Part shown: positions 4,741-55,307 of the stretch, in pieces
Position numbering within the stretch: the stretch's first letter is position 1
How the letters are laid out: every line of letters begins with the position of its first letter
DNA from: Methanocella paludicola SANAE
GTDB taxonomy: Archaea; Halobacteriota; Methanocellia; Methanocellales; Methanocellaceae
Length of the DNA stretch: 64,000 nucleotides
NCBI RefSeq assembly: GCF_000011005.1
Contig: NC_013665.1
Location: 2,519,501 to 2,583,500, forward strand
Reading direction: 5' to 3'
Notes under the pieces: model-generated
Told to the model about the DNA's origin: nothing
What the model saw: only the letters and a program-made list of their open reading frames with translations
The model's database searches: none
Made by a program: the position numbers and the translations under genes

Positions 4741-4830
4741 TTAGTTCGGTAGGTATCACTCGCCTTTATTAATGCCGTGTATCCTGTGGGCATTGATTTG
4801 TTCGGTCGGTATCACGAACCTCTCCAAAGG
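4741..4830. repeat. Fragment of the 54.9-55.2 kb palindromic repeat
   Basis: In the spacer between two convergent genes, 17 bases at 4802-4818 (TCGGTCGGTATCACGAA) are identical, in inverse orientation, to 55214-55230 and match the left arm near 54930 in 16 positions. CGAACCTCTC then AAAGGA at 4815-4831 also resembles an internal part of that element near 55037. A second degenerate copy (TTCGGTAGGTATCACTCG) is at 4744-4761. This looks like a decayed or partial copy of the element. No gene is seen here. Confidence 0.6.
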
Positions 4831-21792: not shown

Positions 21793-22116
21793 TTTAAGCC
21801 ACTAAGCTTACGGAGCCACTATTTTCACCACAATGGCACGAAGCCCACTGAGTTTCACAAAGCTTTCTTTTAAATGTGAGTCACCAAGGCCACAGAGCAG
21901 GCTTTTTGTGTAAAGAGGCACGAAGGGGACAATGACACGATGGCAAAAAGTGTTCGCATGTTCATTCCATTGTGCCATTGTATCCTTTGTGCCCTAACGC
22001 CAATGAACCGGGCTTTGTGACCTCTGTCCCTCCATCTAAAAAAAAGTCTTAGTGAGCCTTCGTGAACTCCGTGCCATTGTGGTGAGAATAGTGCCTCCGT
22101 CAGCTTAGTGCCTTAA
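21793..22116. repeat. Long imperfect palindrome A
   Basis: The left arm starting AAGCCACTAAGCTTACGGAG at 21796 is mirrored by the right arm, whose complement starts AGGCACTAAGCTGACGGAGG (ending at 22114). The arms are about 155 nt each and also share TTTCACCACAATGGCAC versus TCTCACCACAATGGCAC. The centre is near 21955. The arms consist of degenerate CAC-n-GAG and CACAAAG words. The surrounding 21630-22214 is otherwise AT-rich with no supported gene. The element lies 99 nt beyond the stop of the exported-protein gene at 22215 on the minus strand. Confidence 0.75.
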
Positions 22117-22214
22117 AGATGCAAAAAATATTCATTAATAGATTCTCACCCGGGTCACTAACGAGGATTGTATTTTATCAACCACCCAAAAATTAAAAAA
22201 TTTAGAAAATATCT

Positions 22215-22787
22215 TTATCTCATCGGCATCTGGCCTGTCCCGTACGGCTGCGTGCCGTATTGCTGCTGTCCCGCGGCCGGCTGTTGCGGCTGAGAGGCGG
22301 CGGCGCTCTCCTTGACGTCGAAGTAGTCGAAGGCGTTCTTCGCAGTGTTGAATTGCGCGTCGATGATGGCGCTATTCGACGTGTCGTAGACCTTGAGCAG
22401 GATATTGCTGTCGCCCTTCTCGGTCATGGTGCTGTACAGGTCGGCGAGCATGTACGTTAAGTTCGCCATGGTGCCGGCGAGGTCGTACGGGCTCGCGTCC
22501 TTCTGCAGGTACACGCTGGCTGTGACGGCGTCGTTCTCGGTGATGAACACGTTCGCGTTGCCCTCGGCCGCCTGGGACAGGCGCTCGCCGATGATGGCGG
22601 CCCTAGCGGTGTTGCCGTACTGCATGTCGGCCTTCGCCTTCTCGGGCGCCGGCGGGATGTTCAGCGTCTGCGCCCCTCCCTGCTGTCCTCCGCCCGGCTG
22701 CATACCGCCCTGGTACTGCGCCGCAGCCATCCCGATGCCCGCCAGTAGAATGACGGCTATCAATGCTACACTGATCAATCTCTTCAT
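22215..22787 (-). CDS. Exported Gln/Gly-rich hypothetical protein
   Basis: The 190-residue protein starts MKRLISVALIAVILLAGIGMAAAQ, a clear Sec signal peptide with cleavage expected after AAA-Q. A low-complexity Gly/Gln region follows (QGGMQPGGGQQGG), then a globular core (about 45-165) containing ENDAVTASVYLQKDASPYDLAGTMANL. The tail is again Gln/Pro/Gly-rich (QPQQPAAGQQQYGTQPYG). The ATG at 22787 is chosen over the upstream GTG because GGGGTGG lies about 8 nt before it. No family recognised; an envelope protein is likely. Palindrome A lies just downstream. Confidence 0.7.
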   Translation of the reverse strand: MKRLISVALIAVILLAGIGMAAAQYQGGMQPGGGQQGGAQTLNIPPAPEKAKADMQYGNTARAAIIGERLSQAAEGNANVFITENDAVTASVYLQKDASPYDLAGTMANLTYMLADLYSTMTEKGDSNILLKVYDTSNSAIIDAQFNTAKNAFDYFDVKESAAASQPQQPAAGQQQYGTQPYGTGQMPMR

Positions 22788-28531: not shown

Positions 28532-28701
28532 GCCCCCATGTTGTTCTTTTAGGGGAATAATGGTTGCGTTAGCGGAGTAAAACTAATCCCAAAAGTACTG
28601 TTCAATAATTTATCCAAATAGCCCAATGCTAAGTTCATTATCTTTTTCTTTTATGCCATCTTGGTATGACCTTTCGCTGATGTGAATTCTCACTTTCTAG
28701 C

Positions 28702-29018
28702 TATGCCCTCGTGGCGTGTCCTTAACCACAGAGGCGCAGAGCCCACGGAGTGTCACAGAGTTTTTATTTAATAATTTGAGACACAGAGCCCACAGAGCCC
28801 GGTTTATTGGTTTACCTGGGGCACGGAGATGGCAGAGACACGGTTGATTAATAAACAACTAAAAGGTTTATCCTCACCAGTGCCTCTTACGACTCCGTGC
28901 CTCAGGAAAGTTATAAACCCGTTCTCCGTGCCCTCTGTGACCTCCATTTTTAAAAAATCTCTGTGAAACTCCGTGCGCTCGGTGACTCTGTGGTTAAGAA
29001 CACGCCGAAACGGCATAG
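28702..29018. repeat. Long imperfect palindrome B
   Basis: The left arm from TATGCCCTCGTGGCG (28702) to about 28860 matches the complement of the right arm, which reads TATGCCGTTTCGGCG from 29017 inward. Both continue with CTTAACCACAGAG, then CCACGGAG or GCACGGAG, and TCACAGAG. Arms are roughly 155 nt with many mismatches. Internal words CACAGAG, CCCACAGAG and CTCCGTG recur. It lies 86 nt past the stop of the exported 310-residue gene at 29104. Nothing else in 28532-29103 looks coding. Confidence 0.75.
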
Positions 29019-29103
29019 AATGTAAGGATAGGTATTCAGATTTATAAAAATCAGAAAACAATAGTTAGTACCATTAAAAAAGAGAAAAAGTGAGCGGTGT
29101 TGC

Positions 29104-31888: not shown

Positions 31889-32222
31889 ACCACAGAGGCC
31901 ACAATGACTTTTTATTTTTCACCACAGTGGTCACAGTGGGATTTTATTCACCACAGTGGTTCACGGTGGTCACAGAGGTATTTTTATAAGCTGAAGGGGA
32001 CTCGCTTTGCTCGCCCCTCGCAGACCCCGCTCGCTATTGGGGCATTGTGACCTCTGTGGTGCCTCTGTGGCCCATTATAAAAAAGACCACTGTGACCACA
32101 GTGTACCCCTGTGGTGAATAACAACCCTCCGTGACCTCTGTGCACCATTGTGGTGAATATAATAGCCATTGTGCCCACTGTGGTAAAATCCCACTGTGGC
32201 CACTGTGGTGAACACCACAAAA
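31889..32222. repeat. Long inverted CACAGTGG/CACAGAGG repeat C
   Basis: The left part (about 31889-31980) has ACCACAGAGG, TTCACCACAGTGG and GGTCACAGAGG in the forward sense. The right part (about 32041-32222) holds their complements: CCTCTGTGG, CCACTGTGG, CCATTGTGG, CCTCTGTG. TTCACCACAGTGG-n-CACAGTGGGATTTTA at 31938 is closely repeated inversely near 32205. The right side is about twice as long as the left, so it is not a simple two-arm palindrome but an inverted array of 40-50 nt units. Lies between hypE and carS; no gene inside. Confidence 0.75.
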
Positions 32223-32277
32223 ACCTTGATATAGAAAGATAAGCCATTTCTTGTAGAAATCCGTCCCGAGGCTAAAA

Positions 32278-54826: not shown

Positions 54827-54926
54827 ATTGACTTGAATAAGCTATTATTTATGCTTTATGAAAAGTGGCTTTAGCAGTTCTATGCTCTTCGTCCTTGTTT
54901 CTTCTATTCGACGCACGTACAGCCCC

Positions 54927-55230
54927 CCGGTCGGTATCACGAAAACACGAAACTTTTTATATCCCGCGTAAGGCTCGAAATGCACAAAGGTAGATGCTTT
55001 GGGGTTTAAAACACGAAACAACCTCTCTAAAATACGAACCTCTCGAAAGGATTGAAACACGAGAAAAAGCATTACCATTGAAGTTCATGCCGTTCTTGTG
55101 TTTCTATCCTTTAGTGTTTTGGAGCCCTTAGGGAGGTTGTTTCGTGTTTTGAACGCCCGGCATGAGCTTGGTGATTTCGGGCCTTACGTGGGATATAAAA
55201 AGTCTTTCGTGGTTTCGTGATACCGACCGA
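54927..55230. repeat. Long imperfect palindrome D
   Basis: The left arm starts CCGGTCGGTATCACGAAAAC at 54927 and the complement of the right arm starts TCGGTCGGTATCACGAAACC at 55230. Both continue with ACTTTTTATATCCC, CGTAAGG and AAAACACGAAACAACCTC. Arms are about 150 nt, centre near 55080, so nearly the whole 304 bp is one imperfect palindrome. The vocabulary (CACGAAA, AAACACGAAAC) differs from elements A-C, but length and location are alike. A minus-strand ORF (54845-55078) runs into the left arm and is not believed. The rest of 54840-55307 has no gene. Confidence 0.8.
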
Positions 55231-55307
55231 AGGGATCCAGCTCCACAGGAAACATGGTTAAGGGTTGATAAGCAAGCACGGAGCTACCGAATATAAAAAT
55301 ACAGAGC

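Follow-up and report, generated by a model that had tools for sequence, protein, structure and literature searches.

Element A of Methanocella paludicola is probably a MITE-like, non-autonomous representative of a class of mobile elements whose complete form bears a GxxExxY gene

The window analysed here is a stretch of 64,000 nucleotides of the Methanocella paludicola SANAE genome. Element A, a gene-less palindrome located between protein genes in this window, is probably a non-autonomous, MITE-like member of a class of small mobile elements, the complete form of which bears a GxxExxY gene. The assignment is based on the GxxExxY gene at the tip of a related copy, the co-occurrence of gene and arms across genomes, the three states of orthologous sites and the spread of gene-less forms. 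The results suggest a class of mobile elements that appears to be undescribed, and a likely role for the widespread, uncharacterised GxxExxY family (TIGR04256, PF13366), the name of which derives from a sequence motif only. The original prediction, made from the sequence alone, could not show that related palindromes carry this gene at their tip.

The original prediction described an imperfect palindrome which begins 99 nt past the stop of an exported-protein gene and would fold into a very long hairpin on either strand. The palindrome is found at this place (Table 1), the words quoted from its arms are right, and the stop of the minus-strand gene at 22215 is indeed 99 nt from the element. The ungapped arms (21793-21898 and 22012-22117) show 75% identity, and the pairing reaches the tip once small gaps are allowed. 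The RNA folding energies are -166 kcal/mol for the plus strand (z = -14.4) and -182 kcal/mol for the minus strand (z = -17.7), and both were equalled by none of the shuffles. The long hairpin is thus borne out on both strands. According to the Rfam scan, the window contains a single tRNA only, and element A belongs to no Rfam family. The exported-protein gene gave no family in the Pfam scan, and relatives of the gene are present in the genomes G001, G002 and G003.

Table 1. Positions of elements A and B and of the neighbouring genes in the window.
Feature	Position	Strand	Remarks
Element A, gene-less palindromic, ~325 bp	21793..22117	- (the gene-sense strand of the gene-bearing relative)	Orientation by alignment to L035
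Arm 1 of A, CACNAAG-type word array	21793..21950		Ends TTTAAGCCACTAAG; 84% to one arm of the gene-bearing copy
Tip of A, GxxExxY gene position in the gene-bearing relative	21951..21958		By alignment to L028
Arm 2 of A, inverted word array	21959..22117		Ends CTTAGTGCCTTAAA; 89% to the other arm of the gene-bearing copy
Exported-protein gene	22215..22787	-	Context only; upstream of A in gene sense
Small ORF, 77 aa	21194..21427	-	Context; opposite side of A; no Pfam families
Element B, gene-less form of the L041/L045/L048 GxxExxY elements	28690..29025	+	Tip 28857-28860

Further copies, which the original prediction looked for in the genome and in its relatives, were detected in the former only. 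The genome, a single contig of 2,957,635 bases, contains 23 full-length copies including A (84-100% identity), together with partial or interrupted copies. No copy of A was detected when 40 related genomes were searched at the DNA level; this suggests that the element has spread inside this lineage. Nearly all the copies share the ends TTTRAG...CTYAAA, and the tree of the copies is star-like. Two copies which are 97.7% identical are located more than 1 million bases apart at unlike flanks. Thus, the gene-less form itself has spread. The original prediction had considered a recent inverted duplication as the origin of A; a one-off event of this kind is ruled out, as the 23 copies are dispersed and have their ends in common.

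One copy of the A family (G000:C1:1634738-1635536) is split exactly at the tip by a GxxExxY gene. The alignment between A and the gene-bearing relative L028 runs to position 21950 and resumes at 21959, with the gene in between. The tip gene matches PF13366 with 145 bits (cut-off 22) and TIGR04256 with 151 bits (cut-off 35), and is therefore included in the GxxExxY family. PF13366 is the only Pfam family in the gene, and an IS200/IS605-like tyrosine transposase was not detected in it. A similar arrangement was observed for element B, which is present at 40 or more places in the genome. The arms of the genes L041, L045 and L048 match B, and the match to B resumes directly where the reading frame ends. 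Thus, A and B represent two types of gene-bearing element in their gene-less form.

All six PF13366 genes of this genome have close inverted-repeat flanks of 86-208 bp. Further PF13366 loci came from three sources: sister genomes within the family, Bacteroidota, and 200 genomes sampled from the phylum to which a Methylophaga genome belongs. A fixed test, applied to archaea and bacteria, detected an inverted repeat with one arm on either side of the gene at 61 of 75 GxxExxY loci, and no flanking repeat at the other 14. The flanking repeat was observed in only 1 of 24 PIN-domain genes of the same genomes, and in 10 of 153 cases when the centre of the same loci was shifted by 750 bases. Loci with arms are found, for example, on a plasmid of Bacteroides finegoldii and in Sphingomonas parapaucimobilis. 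In the latter (L302:1519-1947), the word-armed gene lies between fabD and fabG of the fatty-acid operon.

Each arm is built from copies of the word C-R-C-N-R-A-G/T (CRCNRAK), which recur with a period of about 9 nt (at a lag of 9, the autocorrelation has z = 14). The words face inward on both sides and are arrayed along the whole arm length. Of the 200 sampled genomes, 32 have GxxExxY, and 20 of these contain two or more word arrays; among the 168 genomes lacking the gene, 7 do so. One of the 20 and two of the 7 are likely chance matches within coding sequence. At least five genomes (G072, G104, G175, G187 and G223) thus have arrays, of the CACAGAGG and CACGAAGA types, with no GxxExxY gene detected. 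In these genomes, the gene may have been lost or missed in an incomplete assembly, or the arrays may have a different partner. Between different genomes, the sharing of words climbs with protein identity from 0.06 to 0.33 and more, and unlike GxxExxY paralogues in one genome have few words in common. The words track the protein more than the host, and this fits the arms and the gene as one unit.

Five orthologous sites of Chryseobacterium were found in three states, namely empty, palindrome only, and palindrome with gene. At S4, the gene and the palindrome are present in one genome, and both are absent from eight relatives. At S2, three relatives have a palindrome that stands alone and is made of the type of word found beside the gene at S3. 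At S5, two relatives retain palindrome remnants without the gene. We considered these S5 sites as the state before gene insertion and rejected this, as pieces of the inner arms remain; the palindrome-only S5 sites are thus deletions. Some palindrome-only sites (L231 and L233) result from gene loss. The ends of the elements are approximate, because the empty counterparts belong to other species, in which the flanks have diverged. The same divergence limits the search for a target-site duplication at the Chryseobacterium sites, which gave none. The palindrome families at S2 (L179-L199) differ from one Chryseobacterium species to another (GTTGATGG words, CTTCGACTCCGCTCAGCG), as if S2 were a preferred landing place.

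An alternative explanation is homing. The palindromes would then be independent repeats spread by other means, and GxxExxY would be a homing-type nuclease gene which invades their tips. Homing nucleases of the PD-(D/E)XK type are known, the gene is placed exactly at the tip in both A and B, and the gene-less copies far outnumber the gene-bearing ones. However, the gene and the palindrome at S4 are present or absent together, the words follow the protein and not the host as expected for a unit, and the palindrome-only S5 sites represent losses rather than targets. Homing is therefore unlikely.

The members of the GxxExxY family, about 130 aa in size, show a PD-(D/E)XK fold with a catalytic D and E-x-K. 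The invariant residues are the E of GxxE, the D, the E-x-K and Q-x3-Y. The predicted model of the relative L056, based on 12 sequences, has a pLDDT of 95.4, and among solved structures its fold is closest to lambda-type exonucleases and to SSO0001, a Cas4 protein (best E 1.5e-3). A weak match to a Cas4 profile agrees with the fold comparison. A sequence search of the PDB chains gave no hit, and the scan of viral contigs with the GxxExxY alignment gave 96 pattern matches and no relatives. A literature search limited to open-licence papers returned no function or element association for GxxExxY and no link between GxxExxY and palindromes; these may be described elsewhere. GxxExxY presumably cuts the arms.

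A complete element would consist of two inverted arrays of the word of about 9 nt with a single GxxExxY gene at the tip. The nuclease may recognise the word arrays of its own element, possibly after their extrusion as a hairpin or cruciform. By cutting the arrays, it would move or copy its own element and, in trans, the gene-less relatives; mobilisation by the GxxExxY nuclease is presumed. The insertion would fall between genes without duplication of the target. The gene itself may be expressed via read-through from the upstream gene. Taking the strands of the neighbours from the longest open frames rather than from curated genes, the GxxExxY gene has the same strand as both neighbours in 58 cases and the opposite strand in 5 cases, which fits read-through. 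The tie between GxxExxY and the palindromes gives the protein a testable job and the palindromes an origin, and it extends the set of enzymes that may move DNA by a further type of nuclease.

Element A resembles the miniature inverted-repeat transposable elements (MITEs) of prokaryotes in that it is short, non-coding and dispersed in many copies with terminal inverted repeats. MITE searches rely on terminal inverted repeats and target-site duplications (PMC10969869). Among 15 copies of the A family, no excess of matching flanks was observed (p = 0.16), and thus the duplication is not seen. In addition, no known transposon corresponds to the gene-bearing partner. By these tests, element A is not a typical MITE. 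An origin of A as an ordinary MITE from a DDE insertion sequence, with the GxxExxY link as a by-product, would account for the size, the terminal inverted repeats, the intergenic dispersal and the absence of genes. A PF00872 (Mutator-family) transposase gene is present near the tip of another A copy (L029:1804-2964). However, this transposase gene was observed in one copy only, and we read it as an ordinary later insertion, whereas GxxExxY is the recurrent gene between arms across phyla. The arms with words arrayed along their length and the lack of duplication also argue against such an origin, which is very improbable.

The original prediction also suggested selection on structure, and a functional RNA hairpin (a small RNA, a double-stranded RNA or a terminator) with its structure under selection would be in line with the very stable fold. 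The solitary copies are located mainly downstream of genes, with 24 at convergent and 6 at divergent gene pairs and no preferred strand at tandem pairs, the neighbour strands again being those of the longest open frames. The convergent preference also fits loss of insertions at promoters. In the A family, two-sided compensatory change was detected in only 5 of 96 consensus pairs, and the majority of paired columns do not vary. Among the mismatches (G-U against A-C) of 63 arm pairs that flank a gene, G-U was counted 168 times for the gene-sense strand vs 172 times for the other strand. The solitary copies of A and B lean in opposite directions in G-U, where the orientation of the B copies is often near a tie, and the mean folding energies of solitary copies are nearly equal between the strands. 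Because the G-U counts are balanced and the solitary copies are inconsistent, selection on RNA structure is unsupported. With no Rfam family and no copy in the relatives at the DNA level either, a functional RNA hairpin is scarcely credible. The structure is therefore either kept as DNA or a plain result of how the element is built. For long hairpins of this sort, a regulatory RNA should not be the default reading.

Two known systems show a similar arrangement. In REP elements with their REP-associated tyrosine transposases (REP/RAYT), as in the present elements, a gene is flanked by inverted palindromic repeats, and many gene-less copies are present between genes. Element A works like REP/RAYT in its arrangement, yet it is not a member. 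The enzyme here is a PD-(D/E)XK nuclease in contrast to the tyrosine (HUH) transposase of RAYT, and the arms are long arrays of 9-nt words in contrast to the GTAG-headed REPs of 20-40 bp. The intervening sequences of 23S rRNA also form a long hairpin enclosing a small ORF. Their S23 ORF encodes a four-helix bundle (PF05635), and they have been called selfish, their origin being open (PMC4990558). Element A is not an rRNA intervening sequence, as the protein is unrelated and A is located between genes, not in rRNA.

PF05635 genes are found with similar arms outside rRNA. Among the genes of Bacteroidota (L269-L298), flanking inverted repeats were detected in 20 of 29, compared with 1 of 29 after shifting. 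The arms are similar arrays with other words (GTTGTCGG, GTTTGAGG and GTAAAATG), and they bear on how the 23S rRNA intervening sequences arose. A wider reading, which we propose tentatively and with slightly less than even confidence, is that archaea and bacteria harbour a large, unrecognised class of mobile elements in which a lone GxxExxY nuclease acts on the inverted arrays of 9-nt words and disperses itself and many gene-less palindromes, with a parallel PF05635 branch using other words. Intergenic palindromes of such words recur in many genomes, and no explanation for them was found. If true, the large class would explain many CACGAAGG- and CGCAGAGTA-type intergenic palindromes of prokaryotes, and its lone PD-(D/E)XK nuclease would be unrelated to the known transposases.

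The original prediction grouped A with two other palindromes of the window, B and C. The likeness holds for B, a family as described above. Element C (31895-32235) is a similar word palindrome (CACCACAGTGGTCACAGTGG), but its only other trace in the genome is one partial match of 83%, and no gene-bearing relative of C was found. A further inverted repeat is located at 54923-55257, with words such as AACACGAAAC and GGTCGGTATCACGAA, and a part of it recurs 50 kb away at 4775-4818.
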